From Methanoculleus sp. (lineage in GTDB: Archaea; Halobacteriota; Methanomicrobia; Methanomicrobiales; Methanomicrobiaceae): a stretch of 39,731 bases of DNA. Positions 30,879 to 39,731 of this stretch are shown here, piece after piece (position 1 is the stretch's first letter; the number at the start of each line of letters is the position of its first letter). The translations under genes and the position numbers were made by a program. Location of the stretch: positions 1 through 39,731 of the forward strand of contig DSDF01000069.1 of the NCBI GenBank assembly GCA_011048835.1, read 5' to 3'. The notes under the pieces are model-generated. The model did no database searches. It was not told the origin of the DNA and worked only from the letters and a program-made list of their open reading frames with translations.

Positions 30879-31919
30879 TCAGATAAAGAACCTGAAGGCG
30901 ACCCAGGCGATGACCACCATGATGACCGAATATTTCAGTCCGGAAATGGCATTGCCTTCGCCCATCTGTCCTGCCACGAGCCCGGAAAAGAATCCCTGTA
31001 TCATTGCGGCATGGGAGAAGAGGCGGTTGTAGAAGAAGAGATCGATACGCCCGCCGAACTGTCCCGCACCCTGTCCGGTTTCTGCGACCGCCGCGCCGGC
31101 TTCGGCCATGGTAGCGAGGAACGTGCCGGTCATCACGGCGATCACGAACAGGAACACGAGGAACGAGACGATCACGATGATCACGTAGATCAGCATGTTG
31201 TTGCGCCGATCGGTATCGAGGGCGAGAAATTCGTATGCATCGTTTGCCGCAGCCCTGAGCACCTCACTGACATTGCCACCGGCCTTGCTGGCCTTGGATA
31301 TGAGGTCGACACTGCGTTCCGCAAGGTGAGTGTTGATGCGGCTGCCGAACCGGTACATCGCATCGACGAAGGGGACATTCCACGACATCTCGTTGTCGAG
31401 CTGCTTGATATATGGCGTCAGGGTGCCGTACTCTCCCTGGGCGACGATGGAGATGGCATTGGGGAGCGTCATACCGCTCTCGTTCATCCCGGCAACATCC
31501 CGGAAGAAGTTCGGAAGCGCCTGCTCGATACTCTTTCTCCGCCTGGATTCCTTGAAATCGAGTAGCGCGAGGGGAACGACGCCCACGAGAATCGCCAGCA
31601 GGAAAATATCGTCGAAAAGCGTCGAGGTAAACAGGATCTGAAGTCCGTATTGGGTCATCAAAAAGAAAAATCCAAGGACAAGAATCAGGAACGCAAGGGG
31701 TAGCGATGCGATAAGAACGTTGAGGGGGCGCTCGGTGAGCACCTCGACCGGATGTGCCTTCAGGCGGTTCACGCCGATGCGGTGCTTGCGCTGATACTCT
31801 ATCCTGTCGAGGATGTCTTTCTGTATCTTTTCAAACTCGTCCAGCTCGACCGCATTGAGATCGTCTTTGCGAAACCCGCTGCGGTTCAAGAAATCACCTA
31901 AAACTTTCCCTGACTTCAT
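30879..31919 (-). CDS. TadC/GspF-like membrane protein (second copy)
   Basis: This 346-residue protein is the second platform subunit of the secretion-type cluster. A soluble N-terminal part (1-75) is followed by a pair of hydrophobic segments (about 78-145), a T2SF cytoplasmic domain (about 150-270, with RRRKSIEQALPNFFRDVAGM and ISKASKAGGNVSEVLRAAA), then three membrane segments (about 270-346). The GspF/TadC family forms the inner-membrane platform that couples ATPase rotation to pilin handling. SD GGAGGTG lies four or five nt before the ATG, right after the first TadC gene. It is the last gene of the operon; no terminator is obvious before the convergent aIF1 region. Confidence 0.88.
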   Translation of the reverse strand: MKSGKVLGDFLNRSGFRKDDLNAVELDEFEKIQKDILDRIEYQRKHRIGVNRLKAHPVEVLTERPLNVLIASLPLAFLILVLGFFFLMTQYGLQILFTSTLFDDIFLLAILVGVVPLALLDFKESRRRKSIEQALPNFFRDVAGMNESGMTLPNAISIVAQGEYGTLTPYIKQLDNEMSWNVPFVDAMYRFGSRINTHLAERSVDLISKASKAGGNVSEVLRAAANDAYEFLALDTDRRNNMLIYVIIVIVSFLVFLFVIAVMTGTFLATMAEAGAAVAETGQGAGQFGGRIDLFFYNRLFSHAAMIQGFFSGLVAGQMGEGNAISGLKYSVIMVVIAWVAFRFFI

Positions 31920-31920
31920 C

Positions 31921-32847
31921 TTACACCTCCGGGGTCATGGAGCTGATCAGGATGATGAACATAATACTCCCCAGCGGCACGATGCCGTAGATCACCGCAT
32001 AGAGCAGCAACGGATCGCCGCCGGACGAACTGATGGTGGACATGATCGACTGAAGAATGATCAGAAAGAGGGTTCCCGCCACCAGCGCGGTCACGTAGGA
32101 TTCTGCGATCAGGCCAAGCGTTTCAAGAAATGTTTTCTGCATCTGGCGATTTTCCAGGGAATACTGCTCGGCTTTGGTCCTGAAATACTCGGTGAGATTG
32201 CTGCCGCTTGAGATGCTCGCCATCGCTCCCTGCAGGAAATCCTTCATCCGCAGGCTCGGCGTATAGGTACCTACGGATCGAAGGGCCTCGATGAGGTCTT
32301 TTCCAAAAATGTCGATTTCCCTGGAGACGTAGCGGGCTTCCGTGGCGCTCTCGCCGTAGATGCTGCTCTGCCCAAGCAGGCGGAACACCTCTGCAGGCGT
32401 GATGCCGGCGGTGGACATGGCGGTCACGTAGTTGATCGCATAGGGCAGCGTTGCATCGATATTCCTGCGGCGTTCACCTGCAAGAACACCCGGATATATT
32501 AAAAAAATGAAGTACGTGATCCCCCCGAACACAAGAAGCGAAAATATGGTGATACCCAGTGTTCCCAAAATGAGGCGGTAGTCGGAAAGCGCCACGATGC
32601 TTGCGGGGAGGGCTCCTTTGTAGCTGATCATCTCGGGGATGCGAAGGACCCAGCTGAGCAGGCCGATGACAAGGGCGAAGATCAGCCCGACGATCACCGA
32701 GGAGACGTAGGCGGTTGAGAGATATGCCTCGAACGGCGTTCTCATCCTCGCACCGAGCATATCATTGCGCAGGCTGACATAATCAGCCCGTTTCGCCTTC
32801 ATCCTTCGGCCGATCATGTTGAAGCAGAACCTCTCGTACCTATTCAT
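31921..32847 (-). CDS. TadC/GspF-like membrane protein (first copy)
   Basis: This 308-residue protein has two N-terminal membrane segments (about 40-70 and 90-125), a T2SF-type cytoplasmic domain (about 130-245, with RRRNIDATLPYAINYVTAMSTAG and a GSNLTEYFRTKAEQYS segment) and two C-terminal membrane segments. SD GAGGGGTGA, inside the end of the ATPase gene, lies five nt before ATG 32847, so I prefer this to the GTG at 32856. It overlaps the ATPase gene by eight bases. Two TadC-like subunits together with one ATPase is the arrangement of tad-type and archaeal pilus/secretion loci; no pilin gene is seen here. Confidence 0.88.
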   Translation of the reverse strand: MNRYERFCFNMIGRRMKAKRADYVSLRNDMLGARMRTPFEAYLSTAYVSSVIVGLIFALVIGLLSWVLRIPEMISYKGALPASIVALSDYRLILGTLGITIFSLLVFGGITYFIFLIYPGVLAGERRRNIDATLPYAINYVTAMSTAGITPAEVFRLLGQSSIYGESATEARYVSREIDIFGKDLIEALRSVGTYTPSLRMKDFLQGAMASISSGSNLTEYFRTKAEQYSLENRQMQKTFLETLGLIAESYVTALVAGTLFLIILQSIMSTISSSGGDPLLLYAVIYGIVPLGSIMFIILISSMTPEV

Positions 32848-35431
32848 ACAGGTCACCCCTCACGATTTCCATGACCGCCTCTGGATCACGGAAGTAGGAG
32901 ACCAGCACCTTTGCCACGTCCTTGAAATGCCTGAGTTTTTTCAATCGCATCCATTCAAGAATCTCCTGACGGCGCTTGAGCTCCTCTCTCATGCGGACCT
33001 CGCTCCAGCCTCGCTCTTCCATGATCTCCTCCAGGATGTACGATTTCCCGGAATAGCGGATTTCATCGGTTACAGGATACCACCGGAAGACTTCGTTGGT
33101 GATAAGTTCGTTGGTGCGCGGGTCGATGTCCAGGACCTCGATCAGCTGCTTGGTGCGCCTGATCCGCTGCCCGCCGATACGCGCCTGCACCTGCACCGAC
33201 ACGAGGTCAAGCGCATTGAGCATATTGCGCGGGACGTTTAACGGTGGGTTCTCGAGACGGTGGACGGCGCTTGCCACCGAATCCGCGTGCATGGTGGCGT
33301 AGGTGACGTGGCCGGTGCTCATCGCCTGGAAGAGCGTGAGGGCCTCGTGACCGCGGACCTCGCCGACCAGGATGTACTCGGGACGCTGCCGGAGGGCGGC
33401 CCTGAGCAGCTCATACATGTCGATGGAGCCCTTGCCGTCCGCATCGAACGATTCTCTTGTGATACTCGGGATCCAGTTGGGGTGGGGGAGTTTCAGCTCG
33501 CGGGTATCCTCCAGCGTGACGATCTTGGCCAGCGGCGGGATGAACAGGGAGATGGCGTTGAGGGAGGTCGTCTTGCCCGATGCCGTTCCTCCGCAGAAAA
33601 TGCAGGATTTGCCGTTTTCCACGGCGAGCCAGAGAAATGCGATGGAGAGCGGTGAGAAGGTCTGCCACTCGATGAGGTCCGTGGGCGTGATGGGCTCGTC
33701 CCTGAACTTGCGGATTGTGAAGGTCGAACCGTGAGCGGTGACCTCTGTTCCAAGCGTCATCTGGATACGCGACCCGTCGCTCATGGTCGCATCGAGCATC
33801 GGTTCTGCAATAGAGATATATTTCCCCGCACGCTGGGCCAGCTTGGTGACAAAGGAATCCAGCTCGACGGGGGAGGTATAGGTGGCGGTGGTCTGGACGG
33901 ATTCGTACCCCGTGTGATAGACAAAGATTGGGGTGTTGAGGCCGTCACACGAGATATCCTCGATGTACTTGTCGTGCATGATCGGGTCGATCCGGCCGTC
34001 GCCGAGGAATTGCTTTTCGATATTATAGAGGACCTTTTCCCGGGAGATCGGCGTGAGCTTGATGCCGTAATCGTGAATGATCTCGTCAACCGCGTCACGG
34101 AGGGCTTTTTGTGCCGTCTCGTAGGTGAGATCCTTGGTATTGACATCGAGCGTCTCAAAGAGCCGCATCTCGAGCTCTTCGAGGAGCTCCTGCTCGGCGA
34201 CATTCAGTTCGGGTTCGATGATCTGGTAGATATGCTCGTGCGTGCTGTTGTCATAGATGATGCGCACGTAGGCATACGGTTCATTGACCGGATAGAGCTC
34301 GACCTCTTCCTGCCCCTGCACCGCCTTCATGGTGAGGTCGACAAGAGGCCCGTGGATGCGCGGGTTGTAGTCTTCCGTCTTCTCCAGGACCGCCTTCACG
34401 AGACCGATCTTTTTTATGAAGCTGAACGAACCCGCATCTTTCTCAGCGCTCTCCTTTTCAGGGGAAATCTGTGAAATCTCGTCGACGTCGAAGGGGAGGG
34501 TGGGAAACCCGGGTTTCCAGATTTCATCGATCTCGGAGAGAACGGTTCCCATGTCAGTCAGGTCGAACGCACTCGAGCTGGTCCCCAGATGCAGGTCCTC
34601 CACTTCGAACGTCGCACCCTGGGGCAGGATCATGTCGGAAAAGTCGCCTATCTCGTCCACGTGCACGATGCTCCTCGGCCCCTCTTCACCTTCATCGGAC
34701 CATTTGGTCTTCCGGGCCTCGTTTTTGACCAGATCAGTGCGATCGGCGGGAACCGCCGCAGGCTGCGCGGGAGAATCATCACTGAGATCCACCGCCGGTA
34801 CACCGAACGAACCCTGCTTTTCCTGTGTGGCCTCCATCGAATTGTCATGCGTTTTCACGATGTCGTCGATAAGAGCACGGAACTCGTCAGCCGGCTCTTC
34901 TGCACTGGAAACGTCTTCCCCCTCGCGTGCTTCGTCCGAACCGCCGGTTCTGATGAGTGACTCGAGAGAATCGCCCGTGGATGCCCCAGAATCGGCCGTG
35001 GATCCCTCCTCTTCAAACTGCCGGATTTTATGAATAAGGCCGCTCAGTTTCTTGTGGGCATCCAGATCCTCGCCACCGGGGCCATGGTCTGATGCAGGGG
35101 GTGCACTGGCCTGATCTCCTGCTGGCTCGCTTTCCCCCGCTGTTCCATCGCCCTCATCAGCAGACGCGACCATGGAGGCGAGAGAATCGATCTCATCTGC
35201 CGCCTCCTCTGCCCCTTTCGTTTCGCCGGACTGCGAAAACGATGTATCGAACCTTTTGAGTCTATTCAAAAAGCCTCCGAACTCTGCTGAATCACATTCT
35301 GCCATACCTGCCGGCGTCTCACCCACACCAGGATCAGAACCGGGTTCTTCCACAGCTTGCTGCGAATTCCCCATTTTTATTCGCTTGATCACATCACTCA
35401 ATTTACTCTTGCCTTTGTCTTCGCCGGCCAT
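32840..35431 (-). CDS. Type II/IV secretion-type ATPase with long acidic N-terminal extension
   Basis: This 863-residue protein belongs to the TadA/GspE/FlaI ATPase superfamily. Residues about 1-330 are acidic, Ser/Ala/Glu-rich and probably disordered, with recurring short segments such as LSDVIKRIK (11-19), FGGFLNRLKRF (51-61), LSGLIHKIRQF (129-139) and FRALIDDIVK (184-193). The ATPase part includes Walker A GGTASGKTT (614-622), an Asp-box-like LEDTRELKLPHPN, LVGEVRGHEALTLFQ (Walker B) and ATMHADS. ATG 35431 has SD GGGGGAG seven nt upstream; the GTG at 35437 is too close to that SD. Secretion ATPases hexamerise and drive pilin or substrate movement. The long N-terminal tail is unusual and may bind partners. 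Confidence 0.92.
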   Translation of the reverse strand: MAGEDKGKSKLSDVIKRIKMGNSQQAVEEPGSDPGVGETPAGMAECDSAEFGGFLNRLKRFDTSFSQSGETKGAEEAADEIDSLASMVASADEGDGTAGESEPAGDQASAPPASDHGPGGEDLDAHKKLSGLIHKIRQFEEEGSTADSGASTGDSLESLIRTGGSDEAREGEDVSSAEEPADEFRALIDDIVKTHDNSMEATQEKQGSFGVPAVDLSDDSPAQPAAVPADRTDLVKNEARKTKWSDEGEEGPRSIVHVDEIGDFSDMILPQGATFEVEDLHLGTSSSAFDLTDMGTVLSEIDEIWKPGFPTLPFDVDEISQISPEKESAEKDAGSFSFIKKIGLVKAVLEKTEDYNPRIHGPLVDLTMKAVQGQEEVELYPVNEPYAYVRIIYDNSTHEHIYQIIEPELNVAEQELLEELEMRLFETLDVNTKDLTYETAQKALRDAVDEIIHDYGIKLTPISREKVLYNIEKQFLGDGRIDPIMHDKYIEDISCDGLNTPIFVYHTGYESVQTTATYTSPVELDSFVTKLAQRAGKYISIAEPMLDATMSDGSRIQMTLGTEVTAHGSTFTIRKFRDEPITPTDLIEWQTFSPLSIAFLWLAVENGKSCIFCGGTASGKTTSLNAISLFIPPLAKIVTLEDTRELKLPHPNWIPSITRESFDADGKGSIDMYELLRAALRQRPEYILVGEVRGHEALTLFQAMSTGHVTYATMHADSVASAVHRLENPPLNVPRNMLNALDLVSVQVQARIGGQRIRRTKQLIEVLDIDPRTNELITNEVFRWYPVTDEIRYSGKSYILEEIMEERGWSEVRMREELKRRQEILEWMRLKKLRHFKDVAKVLVSYFRDPEAVMEIVRGDLYE

Positions 35432-35433
35432 AG

Positions 35434-36054
35434 TCACGCTCCCCCTAAATCAATAACCGTCTCACCAAACCGTTCCCTGAAATCGAGCATAAAACGGTGC
35501 AGATTATGGGTTCTGTCAACCACCACACAATCATACGTCCCATTCTGGAGTTTAAAGCACACTTTGCCGTCTGTTGCGGTAATGTCGCTCGCAAGGACCT
35601 GGCGTCCTTTCCGAATTGTAACACGCATTCCCGATTGCAGCGTGCCTTCCCGCTTGATGATAATGCAGAGTTTTCCAAGAGAACTGTTTGAACCACCGAT
35701 GATAGGAAGATCTTCGGAAAGACGCTTTTTAAAGTGAATTTTGTCGTGGACCCTGCATCGTGCCGCAAGAGATTCACTGAACACATCCTCTGTCAGAAAC
35801 AACTTGAATATTTCATCGTGCTTCAACAGATACAGCGCCTTATTCCCGAACAGCACACCACTCTCCTCTATCAATGTCGCCCCTTCCGGTTCCCCCCTCA
35901 CAAAAACTACAATGGTATTTTTTGTTCCCTCTTCCGCAATCGCAAGACCGCTCTTTTGTGAGACGCGCATGTGCTCGATGAGATCTTCGAAGGCATAATT
36001 GCCTTCATATTTGGAATTGCTGATAACTTTGTCAAAGAGATCCGATATCTGCAT
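35434..36054 (-). CDS. PATAN/DUF4388-like protein with C-terminal beta domain, upstream of the secretion ATPase
   Basis: This 206-residue protein is not confidently assigned. The N-terminal half (about 10-105) has the pattern FEDLIEHMRVSQKSGLAI, a beta strand VVFVRGEPEGATL, a GNKALYLL helix and a later KLFLTEDVF strand, resembling PATAN/DUF4388-type domains that occur in bacterial response and GTPase pathways. The C-terminal part (about 130-206) is beta-rich and looks like a carboxypeptidase-regulatory/PEGA-like fold (GMRVTIRKGRQVLASDITAT, GTYDCVVVDRT). ATG 36054 was taken; TTG 36063 and GTG 36057 are alternatives without clear SD. It ends two bases before the ATPase ATG, so it leads this operon. 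Confidence 0.65.
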   Translation of the reverse strand: MQISDLFDKVISNSKYEGNYAFEDLIEHMRVSQKSGLAIAEEGTKNTIVVFVRGEPEGATLIEESGVLFGNKALYLLKHDEIFKLFLTEDVFSESLAARCRVHDKIHFKKRLSEDLPIIGGSNSSLGKLCIIIKREGTLQSGMRVTIRKGRQVLASDITATDGKVCFKLQNGTYDCVVVDRTHNLHRFMLDFRERFGETVIDLGGA

Positions 36055-36219
36055 CACGATCAACCCATACTGCCTGGTGTACTACCGAAGATGCGCGATA
36101 CCTTCACCGGCAGACCCCTGTACAATTGGCATCCATAGATTCTCTTAAGGTTCACTTGGGGGGCATACCATTTGAAATTTCCCTTTCTGCTCCAGGTCTG
36201 ATGCGGCAGCCGGATTATA

Positions 36220-36248
36220 GCAGATTCGTGGCCGATCCACAAATCTGC
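36220..36248 (-). promoter_or_regulatory. 12-bp-stem hairpin in the leader of the secretion operon
   Basis: GCAGATTTGTGG, loop ATCGG, CCACGAATCTGC on the minus strand. As minus-strand RNA all 12 positions can pair, one as a G-U wobble. As plus-strand RNA one C-A mismatch appears, so the structure suits a transcript running toward the secretion operon. Confidence 0.5.
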
Positions 36249-36313
36249 ACCCGGAAACGTGTGATAGCGCACGCGGCCGGGCCATCAGGTTATTAATGAA
36301 GATTGCCCCTTTG

Positions 36314-36346
36314 GATTATCATTGGATCATGACCTTGGTGATAATC
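36314..36346. promoter_or_regulatory. Inverted repeat GATTATCA-N17-TGATAATC
   Basis: Perfect 8-base arms with a 17-base spacer that itself contains TCATGA at its centre. It lies just upstream of a TATA-like stretch on the minus strand, a typical place for an activator or repressor site. Function inferred from position only. Confidence 0.4.
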
Positions 36347-36455
36347 AATCAGGACATATCCGTATATGAGGTTGATGGCTCCGCCGCGATCCATGGAACC
36401 GGCAGCGACGCACCATCGGGCACAAAGGTGTGCAGAGCACCAGATAGGCCGGCTA

Positions 36456-37115
36456 TCACTGAATGCCCTTGAGGGCGAGCCGGATCATGCCCAGGTGCGC
36501 TTCGGGCGTGGTATGTACAAAAAGAGAGAGATCGCGATAGGGAGCGATCAGGTACTTCCCTTTCGGGGTCTCGATGATCATCTGGTCCAGCGGACCGATT
36601 CCGAGATCTTCGGAGATCTTGTTTCCGGCCCTGAGCAGGTCCTCGGCGATCGCCGCCTCGTACTCGAAATCCCCGATGCCCACTGATTGGACGGGAAACC
36701 CTTCGAAGAATGCTGAGACAACGATTACCCCGCGTTGTTTGGCAATGCTGAGCAATGTTTCCTCGGTCACCAGCGTATCCGTATCTATCGTATCCCGGCG
36801 CGGGGATGAATCGGGTATCATCCAGCCCTGCGCTGCGCAATGATTGATCGCCTGGTTCATCTCATCGGCAGTATAGATCCTGATCTCGTATTCCAGGAGC
36901 GGCCGTTCCTGGATGTATTCAAGCGCCTCATTCCCTTTGAGATTGCGAAAATCGTCACTGAAATGTGCCCCGATTGGCGCCCCTTTATCCGCAAGGAGGT
37001 AGCCGACGCCTCCAAATCCGGATATCTTCGCTCCTATCGTCAGCTGAGCCCCGAACTCAAGCAATTCGCTCAGTGGGCACTGCATGTGCGCCAGGGATCT
37101 CCATTCGGGCAACAT
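36456..37115 (-). CDS. Two-domain roadblock/LC7 protein with PATAN-like N terminus
   Basis: This 219-residue protein has an N-terminal alpha/beta domain (about 10-105) with LSELLEFGAQLTIGAKIS, a DKGAPIGAHFSDD strand pair, KGNEALEYIQ and YEIRIYTADEM, similar in layout to the N-terminal domain of the protein encoded at 35434-36054. The C-terminal 100 residues form a roadblock/LC7 fold (GVIVVSAFFEGFPVQSVGI, then LDQMIIETPKGKYLIAPY and a final amphipathic helix). Roadblock proteins (MglB type) act as GTPase partners of small Ras-like proteins. No such GTPase gene is in the window. The ATG at 37115 is six bp from the stop of the next roadblock gene. An alternative ATG is at 37085. Confidence 0.78.
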   Translation of the reverse strand: MLPEWRSLAHMQCPLSELLEFGAQLTIGAKISGFGGVGYLLADKGAPIGAHFSDDFRNLKGNEALEYIQERPLLEYEIRIYTADEMNQAINHCAAQGWMIPDSSPRRDTIDTDTLVTEETLLSIAKQRGVIVVSAFFEGFPVQSVGIGDFEYEAAIAEDLLRAGNKISEDLGIGPLDQMIIETPKGKYLIAPYRDLSLFVHTTPEAHLGMIRLALKGIQ

Positions 37116-37120
37116 GGATA

Positions 37121-37468
37121 TTACAGTGCGGCGATAATGCGTTCCTTGTTTTTCTTCAGCTCGTATCTGATACGCCCGATATTAACGTCCTTGTCGCCAA
37201 CGATTGCGATCAGCTCGTCTTCTGAGAGGGGCGAAAGCAGGATGGGGCCGTGTTCCAGCTCGACCAGCATCTGGTGCATATCGCCCTTGCCGAGCTCGGC
37301 ACCCATTGCTTCCGAGGTCCCCATGCCGGTCGACGCCATTGCGCCCAGCGCTTCTGTGTCGATCTCTCCGGCCTCTACGCTTTCGATAACAAAGCCGTCC
37401 CGTCCCACGACAACGGCAGCGGATACGCCATCGAGTTTTAAAAACTCACTCAGGATTTGCTTGAGCAT
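37121..37468 (-). CDS. Single-domain roadblock/LC7 (MglB-like) protein
   Basis: This 115-residue protein is a bare roadblock/LC7 domain: LSEFLKLDGVSAAVVVGRDG, FVIESVEAGEIDTEA, a polar GMGTSEAMGAELGKGD loop, MLVELEHGPILLSPL, and a final IRYELKKNKERII helix. Such proteins dimerise and regulate small GTPases in bacteria and archaea. SD AGGTGA lies five nt before ATG 37468, the preferred start. It follows mvhA by 41 bp, but a TATCAA-type AT-rich stretch near 37495-37506 could give it a promoter of its own. Confidence 0.85.
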   Translation of the reverse strand: MLKQILSEFLKLDGVSAAVVVGRDGFVIESVEAGEIDTEALGAMASTGMGTSEAMGAELGKGDMHQMLVELEHGPILLSPLSEDELIAIVGDKDVNIGRIRYELKKNKERIIAAL

Positions 37469-37508
37469 TCCATTCACCTGGTTTTCAAAGCCTCTCTTGA
37501 TAAAGTAT

Positions 37509-38882
37509 TCAATCTTTCTTTTTACGAACGACCTTGATTTTCATCGGCATGCGTCCGATGGCATGCGTTGCACAGGAGATGCAGGGGTCATACGCGCGGA
37601 TCACCATCTCGATCCGGTTGGCCGCGTGTTCGGAAAGCGTGCCGTCCTGTACTACCTTGCGGGCAACATCCTCGACCCCGCGGTCCATGCCCCAGTTATT
37701 CTGGCAGGTTGCCACGATCAGGTTGCACCGCTGGATGAACCCGTCCTCGTCGACGGTGTAGTCGTGGATGAGCGTGCCTCTCGGGGCCTCGATGATCCCC
37801 ACCCCGCGAGTGCCTGCCACCCCGTCGACCCGGGCACGGACATCGGTGCCGGTGATGGCGGGGTCCGAGAGCAGCGCCACCGCACGCTCGCACGAGGCGA
37901 TGAACTCCACATAGCGGGCGATGTTGTAGGCGAGGGTCGTCTGGACAAAAGTTCCGAATGTTTCGCGATATTCGTCCAGTGCCGCATCGGCACCCTCCGT
38001 CCCCATCTCGCGGACAAGGTTCAAGCGGGCGAGCGGGCCGACCCGGTAGTACTGGCCGCTCTTTAAGCGGGCGAACTTGAGATACGACCACGACTCGGAG
38101 TACTCTTCGATGTAGTCGAGGTAATCCTCCCCGGCGAAGCTGCCGATGGCGTTCCCGTCGGTGTCAGCGACCTCCGCCCTGCCGTCCGTGATGCTGTAGC
38201 GCCCCTGGTCGGTCAGGCCAACAAACGCGGAATCCACTGCGCCAAAGGCCAGATCGGTTTCCCCGAGAATGCCGCGGGCCATCGACCACCCTTCCTGTGC
38301 GATCGAGAGCGCCCGCTGTGCCATCTCCAGCAGTTCAACGCGCTTTTGCTCTGCAAGGGGGGCAGAAATGCCCCCGGGGATCGCGGTCGAGGGGTGGATG
38401 GGTTTTCCGCCGATCGCCTCGGTGAGGCGCTGGCCGAATTTCCTTACCTCGATGGCCTTTTTCGCAAGGTCCGGATCCTTGTGCACGAGCCCAACGAGAT
38501 TGCGCCCCGCTGCCGGCGCCTCATGCCCGATGAGAAAGTCGGGCGCCGCGAGCATGAAGAAGTGCAGGGCATGGGAATGGACGAACTGCCCGTGCATCAT
38601 CAGCTCCCGCAGACGCCTGCCTGTCGCCGGCGGCTCGGCGCCGAATATCTGGTCGCAGGCTTTTGCTGAGGCAATGTGGTGAGCGGTCGGACAGATGCCG
38701 CAGATGCGCGGGGTGATCCGGGGGGCTTCCTCCACCGCAGCGCCGATGAGGAATTTCTCGAAGCCGCGCAGTTCGACGACGTTGAAATGGGCACTCTCCA
38801 CGCCCCCGGCATCATCGAGGGTGATGCGCACCTGGGCGTGCCCTTCGATCCTCGTCACGGGGTTGATGGTGATCTGGGTCAT
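37509..38882 (-). CDS. mvhA: F420-non-reducing hydrogenase large subunit MvhA
   Basis: MvhA holds the [NiFe] centre that splits H2. In methanogens, MvhADG works with heterodisulfide reductase, coupling ferredoxin and heterodisulfide reduction. The 457-residue protein has VTRIEGHA, the L1 motif RICGICPTAH (Cys61, Cys64) and the L2 motif DPCISCATH (Cys434, Cys437, His440). Seventeen residues follow His440, the expected C-terminal peptide removed by a maturation protease. No maturation gene is seen here. The start overlaps the mvhG stop (ATGA, 38879-38882). The N-terminal layout favours MvhA over FrhA. Roadblock genes, not further hydrogenase subunits, follow it. Confidence 0.92.
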   Translation of the reverse strand: MTQITINPVTRIEGHAQVRITLDDAGGVESAHFNVVELRGFEKFLIGAAVEEAPRITPRICGICPTAHHIASAKACDQIFGAEPPATGRRLRELMMHGQFVHSHALHFFMLAAPDFLIGHEAPAAGRNLVGLVHKDPDLAKKAIEVRKFGQRLTEAIGGKPIHPSTAIPGGISAPLAEQKRVELLEMAQRALSIAQEGWSMARGILGETDLAFGAVDSAFVGLTDQGRYSITDGRAEVADTDGNAIGSFAGEDYLDYIEEYSESWSYLKFARLKSGQYYRVGPLARLNLVREMGTEGADAALDEYRETFGTFVQTTLAYNIARYVEFIASCERAVALLSDPAITGTDVRARVDGVAGTRGVGIIEAPRGTLIHDYTVDEDGFIQRCNLIVATCQNNWGMDRGVEDVARKVVQDGTLSEHAANRIEMVIRAYDPCISCATHAIGRMPMKIKVVRKKKD

Positions 38883-39730
38883 CTGCTCCCCTCCTTGATC
38901 AGCTCACGGATTTTCGATATCTCCTTGTCTTCCATCACCTGGCTTCCCATGGTGAACGGGTACATCGTGTGGGCGACGTCGTAGAGCATCGCAGCAACCT
39001 CTTTTTCAGGGCGGTCGGTGAGATCGGAGATCCGCCGCACCGTCATATTGAAGATATCCCTGCACGGTTCCCGCAGGATGTCGAGCGAAGGGCCGTTGCA
39101 CCCATGGCAGGGGATATTCTTCGCGGGGCATGCCGCCCCGCACCCGCAGAACGTGACCGGGCCGAGGCAGAGGTAGCCCTGACCAAGCAGGCAGTAGTCC
39201 GGGTCAGGTTCCCCCTCGAAGCGGCGTTTCAGCGTCCAGTTCTCGATGGGGCCCATGGTACGGTTGCATTCGGAGCAGACCGATTTGCGGGAGAGGGAGA
39301 CGCGGTCGCCGGCCAGCATGGCAGGCAGGATCTGCCGCAGACGATTCTCCTTGGGCGGGCAGCCGGGAATGAAATAATCGATCTTCACCATATCGTCGAC
39401 CGCAAATGCACGGTAGAGGAACGGCGGCACATCGGAAGGGATGGTGCCGTCCGCAGGTGCGCTGTCCACCTCCCGGTAGACATAATTGAAGAGATCCTCT
39501 CTGCTGCTGAGCATGGAGAGCCCGGAAATACCCCCGTAGACTGCGCAGGTGCCGAGCGCCACAAGGATGTTCGCACGTGTCCGTATCGTTTTGAGGCGCT
39601 CCTTGTTTTCCGCGTTCCTGACCGCACCGGTCACAAAGGCGATGTCGATGCCTTCGGGGGGCTCTTTGACATCCATGATCACGGGGGAGTAGACGATTTC
39701 CGCTGTTTCGAGGACATCAAGGATCATCTC
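38879..39730 (-). CDS. mvhG: Hydrogenase small subunit MvhG, N terminus outside window
   Basis: This is the electron-transfer subunit carrying three Fe-S clusters. About 283 C-terminal residues are visible. They include VALGTCAVYGGISG, YFIPGCPPKENRLRQILPA, a SVCSECNRTMG stretch, and later LLGQGYLCLGPVTFCGCGA and CPAKNIPCHGCNGPS, which supply the Cys ligands of the distal clusters. The first cluster's N-terminal CxxC is beyond the window end, so the start is not visible; the frame is open to the edge. It overlaps mvhA by four bases. MvhD or heterodisulfide-reductase genes, if linked, lie outside the window. Confidence 0.92.
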   Translation of the reverse strand, partial: EMILDVLETAEIVYSPVIMDVKEPPEGIDIAFVTGAVRNAENKERLKTIRTRANILVALGTCAVYGGISGLSMLSSREDLFNYVYREVDSAPADGTIPSDVPPFLYRAFAVDDMVKIDYFIPGCPPKENRLRQILPAMLAGDRVSLSRKSVCSECNRTMGPIENWTLKRRFEGEPDPDYCLLGQGYLCLGPVTFCGCGAACPAKNIPCHGCNGPSLDILREPCRDIFNMTVRRISDLTDRPEKEVAAMLYDVAHTMYPFTMGSQVMEDKEISKIRELIKEGSR

Positions 39731-39731
39731 G

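Follow-up and report, generated by a model that had tools for sequence, protein, structure and literature searches.

The stretch of DNA analysed here, hereafter the window, is the entire contig C12 (39,731 nt) of a Methanoculleus genome (G000). On its minus strand it harbors six genes, each an intact open reading frame (ORF) with the limits given in a preliminary description of this DNA, that pair a predicted pilus or secretion motor with putative regulatory proteins. Rob1 (37121..37468) codes for a single-domain roadblock/LC7 protein of 115 amino acids (aa) from the ATG at 37468, the start backed by alignment, or of 118 aa from the GTG at 37477. It is followed by Rob2 (36456..37115), whose 219-aa product appears to join a PATAN/DUF4388-like N-terminus to a roadblock C-terminus, and by PTN (35434..36054), with 206 aa from an ATG at 36054 that is likewise backed by alignment, a putative PATAN-like N-terminus and a carboxypeptidase-regulatory/Ig-like C-terminus. 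The motor genes comprise a putative PilB3-type secretion/pilus assembly ATPase of 865 aa (32840..35437), the first 337 aa of which form an acidic N-terminal extension (34427..35437), and two TadC/GspF-like membrane proteins, TadC1 (31921..32856) and TadC2 (30879..31919).

The domain assignments of the three regulatory proteins differ in strength. A Pfam search matches Rob1 to the roadblock model PF03259 with an E value of 1.2e-17, and against the MglB model the protein reaches only 25.8 bits, for a cut-off of 200. The C-terminal roadblock domain of Rob2 scores poorly in the window copy (E 0.0026); every one of 18 aligned orthologues has a match to it (best E 5.3e-9), and it aligns with Rob1 in profile comparison at a probability of 97.6. 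Direct DUF4388 matches to Rob2 orthologues are few and weak (2/18), and the N-terminus aligns with protein family c23 (probability 95, E 2e-8), 7 of whose 11 members match DUF4388/PATAN. Rob2, initially described as a second roadblock protein, keeps that label and is best regarded as a probable PATAN-like/roadblock hybrid. For PTN, neither a direct Pfam match in the window copy nor a DUF4388 match among 35 family members was found. Its N-terminus aligns with c23 at a probability of 70 (E 4e-5) and with Rob2 at a probability of 80, both moderate scores, and it is by profile-profile comparison only that PTN may, with moderate confidence, be termed PATAN-like; the label is better founded for Rob2. 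As a control, two unrelated profile pairs scored 1.0 and 0.1. The PTN C-terminus matches CarboxypepD_reg in 9 of the 35 members, and the best hits of the PTN profile among solved structures are weak Ig-like chains only (best E 0.0014).

The motor proteins are more readily recognized. The ATPase matches T2SSE with an E value of 9e-34, and its provisional placement in the PilB3 type, that of euryarchaeal clade 2, comes from the PilB3 models alone, with a weak match to PilB3_C that lies above the cut-off (29.3 bits; cut-off 27) and a score for PilB3_N slightly below it (26.7 bits; cut-off 27). Both TadC proteins match T2SSF (E 1.2e-13 for TadC1 and 2e-16 for TadC2), and together they correspond to the two halves of ArlJ, since TadC1 covers positions 36-249 and TadC2 positions 272-541 of the 555 in the ArlJ model. 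The identity of the cluster as a pilus motor appears fairly secure. The same genome encodes two secretion ATPases and PINA. The acidic extension of the window ATPase carries three helical motifs of the type LxxIIxKI, a pattern derived from the window itself, which makes the p value for the window post hoc; in other genera the motif is seen more often than shuffles yield, and it is a possible docking site. The extension measures 189-591 aa in genomes that bear Rob1 versus 80-95 aa in three loci of the Methanospirillum-like genus g30. Its length tracks Rob1 imperfectly, the exceptions being genome G013, which lacks Rob1 and retains a long extension, and one genome of family f6 with 282 aa.

The cluster is widely distributed. 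Of 60 related genomes, 54 contain PTN; across the class it occurs in 160 of 199 genomes, representing 32 of 37 genera. Rob1 is present in 47 of the 60 relatives at 69-99% identity. Gene order, taken from 36 loci (most of 20 kb), is usually PTN-ATPase-TadC1-TadC2; in family f5 it reads Rob1-Rob2-ATPase-TadC1-TadC2, with PTN some kb away. The recurrence of PTN, Rob1 and this order across genomes indicates that the cluster is not a chance assembly. Hence, the association of a secretion-type motor with roadblock and PATAN-like regulators put forward in the preliminary description holds, in that the six ORFs, their Pfam or profile matches and their retention in relatives all agree with it. Gene order and folds were both checked as points on which that proposal could fail: the order is conserved, and the regulatory proteins resemble roadblock and PATAN proteins in Pfam or profile searches, the PATAN call for PTN standing at a moderate profile probability of 70-80%. 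In the Methanospirillum-like genomes, PTN occupies the C-terminus of a REC-PAS-PTN fusion located apart from the ATPase gene (L150:8976-10427, L151:8616-10067 and L152:8587-10044), and this fusion to REC and PAS domains makes PTN look like a signalling output.

Several further observations concern PTN and its surroundings. A large protein encoded at L075:7641-9830 (contig C37) and at L076:7825-10014 contains a stretch that is weakly PTN-like (27-31% identity), and in its copy from genome G002 there are PAS domains, and HisKA is weakly matched. In one genus, recoding of internal stop codons in PTN was considered and rejected; the stop was read as a normal gene end because the ORF has 203 aa and the match continues to the end of the query. 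The leader that precedes PTN (36055-36220) is 86-95% identical in three congeners, and beyond the genus no similarity is detectable. A 70-aa ORF in the gap between Rob2 and PTN (36060-36272) was dropped on account of its lack of a Pfam match and of indels in the gap of a congener, and an Rfam search of the window returned no match.

Two components expected of a pilus system, a prepilin peptidase and pilins, had been reported as missing. At its 39731 end, contig C12 shares 123 identical bases with contig C21, and this overlap falls within vhuG. A prepilin peptidase (PF06847, E 1.3e-22; PF01478, E 6e-8) is encoded on C21, as are a second, diverged roadblock pair (Rob1'/Rob2'), a HAMP protein, HisI and PINA, a PIN-KH ATPase. 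Each of the 36 loci examined has a homolog of the peptidase close to the cluster, usually divergent from PTN. The stated absence of a prepilin peptidase is thus true of the window and not of the locus; it is a contig-end artefact, the peptidase going unseen because the window stops where the contig does. In searches for pilins and small GTPases, every match in the genome fell on other contigs and none in the window. Three PilA-like pilins with PF07790 N-termini are encoded on contigs C114 and C78, and an MglA-like GTPase on contig C54, as anticipated by the suggestion that substrate and GTPase are encoded elsewhere. The PilB3 locus of Haloferax is itself reported to be pilin-free, with pilins supplied in trans (PMC4858521), a report with which the arrangement seen here agrees. 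On C21, the Rob1'/Rob2' genes, along with those for the HAMP membrane protein and a protein of 74 aa, occupy the interval that separates the hydrogenase genes from the peptidase gene (L074:16527-18774); the arrangement is also found in two congeners, and the pair with the HAMP protein in genome G015.

Comparison of the gap between Rob2 and PTN across lineages points to a further candidate component. In several lineages this gap contains a PATAN protein of family c23 and a MinD-family ATPase (family c24), to which the kit of family f5 adds a V4R protein and a roadblock-like protein of family c31 with an N-terminal membrane segment, the latter a reading of the sequence (no Pfam match). The Methanoculleus genome analysed here carries its own version on contig C15, where a REC-MetOD2 response regulator gene adjoins a roadblock gene, and genes for a double-PATAN protein, a c31-type protein and MinD lie divergent from these two. 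The MinD protein belongs to the archaeal MinD family (TIGR01969, E 1.3e-98), and all eight copies checked have a deviant Walker A motif (KGGTGKTT) and an amphipathic C-terminus. Rob1 and MinD occur together in 47 of the 60 genomes and are both lacking in 10; Rob1 alone is found in none, and MinD alone in three, two of them fragmented assemblies. The joint absences are spread over about three separate lineages. In the 47 genomes with both, the distance from Rob1 is at most 5 kb for MinD in 31 and at most 6.5 kb for PTN in 33, and in 44 one or both of them are this close. When the Rob1-Rob2 pair is located away from the motor, it is mostly near genes for PATAN, the c31-type (membrane-anchored roadblock-like) protein and MinD.

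From these observations we infer that the genes specify the motor of a type IV pilus of euryarchaeal clade 2 (PilB3 type), most likely one for adhesion, with regulatory proteins of its own and MinD as a site-marking partner, a reading to which we assign a probability of roughly 55%. According to this proposal, the ATPase would power the split TadC platform, with PilA-like pilins supplied by other loci and processed by the prepilin peptidase encoded just upstream on the adjoining contig. The archaeal MinD, with its conserved amphipathic C-terminus, might mark or license the site at which the motor is assembled or works, and the membrane-anchored roadblock-like protein, Rob1/Rob2 and the PATAN-like proteins would act alongside it. 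The roadblock proteins could be adaptors or activators of MinD, as MglB is for MglA, and PTN and Rob2 may have the motor as their target, possibly binding the helical motifs in the acidic extension of the ATPase, and may relay two-component signals. Co-occurrence and linkage make MinD a likelier NTPase partner of the roadblock proteins than MglA, and the suggestion in the preliminary description that a different partner might be used fits the evidence better with MinD as the candidate. That MinD is their direct partner is plausible and decidedly tentative. Equally tentative is the broader notion that a MinD-roadblock-PATAN module replaces the Ras-like GTPase, in which case it would be an archaeal counterpart of the MglA-MglB switch, controlling where and when the type IV pilus motor works with two-component input through the PATAN-like proteins.

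Several points weigh against this proposal. In Methanospirillum-like and f6 genomes, PTN and the motor are retained although Rob1 is missing (it was absent from all eight g30 genomes searched), implying that the motor can dispense with the roadblock proteins. The putative link to MinD is purely genomic, and the Fisher values for the co-occurrence of Rob1 and MinD ignore shared ancestry and are therefore descriptive only. Rob1 is linked just as tightly to the hydrogenase gene VhuA. Finally, AlphaFold models of PTN and Rob2, built from three near-identical sequences, have predicted local distance difference test (pLDDT) values of 36 and 33 and are unusable.

The alternative that fares best, unlikely as it seems, is a polarity system of the bacterial style in which Rob1 and Rob2 would serve as regulators, of the GTPase-activating protein or guanine nucleotide exchange factor type, of an MglA-like GTPase that controls the motor. 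The genome does encode one such small GTPase on contig C54 (L095:849-1388), with the GTPGQ motif reported for MglA groups 2-5 (PMC4316618); Rob1 has a DG pair, as described for the MglB of these same groups (PMC4316618), and 39 of the 47 genomes with Rob1 also have MglA. The remaining eight, however, lack it, four of them being single-contig genomes, and no roadblock match was found beside MglA in 23 stretches (20 short and three longer). On C54, a ParA-like gene lies close to the MglA-like gene, and no roadblock gene is linked to it.

The genes immediately upstream of Rob1 raise a second, somewhat less probable alternative, namely that Rob1 and Rob2 serve the Vhu/Mvh hydrogenase, for instance by contributing to its assembly or to redox-dependent regulation, and that their place beside the motor is secondary. 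Directly upstream lies the gene for the hydrogenase large subunit VhuA/MvhA (37509..38882, minus strand; VhuA model, E 1e-123), whose membership of the system is uncertain, and beyond it, on the same strand, that for the small subunit VhuG/MvhG (38879..39731; VhuG model, E 2.5e-64), which is cut by the contig end and continues at its 5' part on C21. Of the 40 genomes that have VhuA, 37 place Rob1 no more than 106 bp after it, in two genomic settings (37121-38882 in the window, L119:10460-13126 and L128:8538-11177), and G013, the genome with a long ATPase extension and no Rob1, lacks VhuA too. On the other hand, six f5 genomes without VhuA retain Rob1-Rob2 beside the ATPase, and Rob1 is always accompanied by MinD and not always by VhuA. 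Least probable is that an ordinary motor lies in a syntenic housekeeping region with the regulators as inherited neighbors devoid of a specific pilus role: the entire region, including the housekeeping genes for HisI, LeuRS, CobQ and SUI1, is indeed syntenic across the order, but after rearrangement Rob1-Rob2 stays with the motor or with MinD, Rob1 and MinD are jointly missing from about three lineages, and one genus has PTN fused to REC and PAS domains.

The placement and switching of archaeal adhesion pili are poorly understood, and the MinD-roadblock-PATAN kit provides a concrete candidate for these functions in much of the Methanomicrobiales. If the roadblock proteins were indeed to act on MinD, the NTPases served by this ancient domain, which is shared with eukaryotes, would extend beyond the Ras-like GTPases.

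With regard to known systems, the pilus motor is of a familiar kind, and the regulatory kit that goes with it is uncommon. The motor type and the presence of roadblock proteins and MinD in archaeal pilus loci are already catalogued: in a 2016 census, clade-2 motors are listed that have two tadC genes and receive their pilins in trans, a FleN/MinD ATPase is anticipated, and roadblock proteins are recorded for type IV pilus loci (PMC4858521). The cluster thus shares with the PilB3-PilC3, or clade-2, pili of Haloferax volcanii a PilB3-type ATPase, the two tadC genes of many clade-2 loci, pilins in trans, the expected FleN/MinD and the roadblock proteins noted there (PMC4858521). The text of that census contains neither PATAN nor DUF4388, and the locus described here includes putative PATAN-like/roadblock hybrids and the PTN gene. 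The MglA-MglB(-RomY/RomR) module of Myxococcus (PMC9481161, PMC4316618) similarly ties roadblock proteins to pilus control with response-regulator input nearby, whereas here the GTPase is unlinked and often absent and a MinD ATPase is the constant companion. Archaeal MinD-family ATPases are also represented by MinD2 and MinD4 of Haloferax, which affect the placement of the archaellum, a machine related to type IV pili, and of the chemosensory array (PMC11588486); the MinD described here comes from a different order, and its gene is associated with those for roadblock and PATAN proteins and with a pilus motor. In a similar vein, the Rob2 N-terminus and PTN align with the DUF4388-matching family c23 and differ from other PATAN/DUF4388 proteins in their C-termini, Ig-like in PTN and roadblock in Rob2. 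We found no description of a PATAN/roadblock/MinD module in the open-access literature, and the combination appears to be new.

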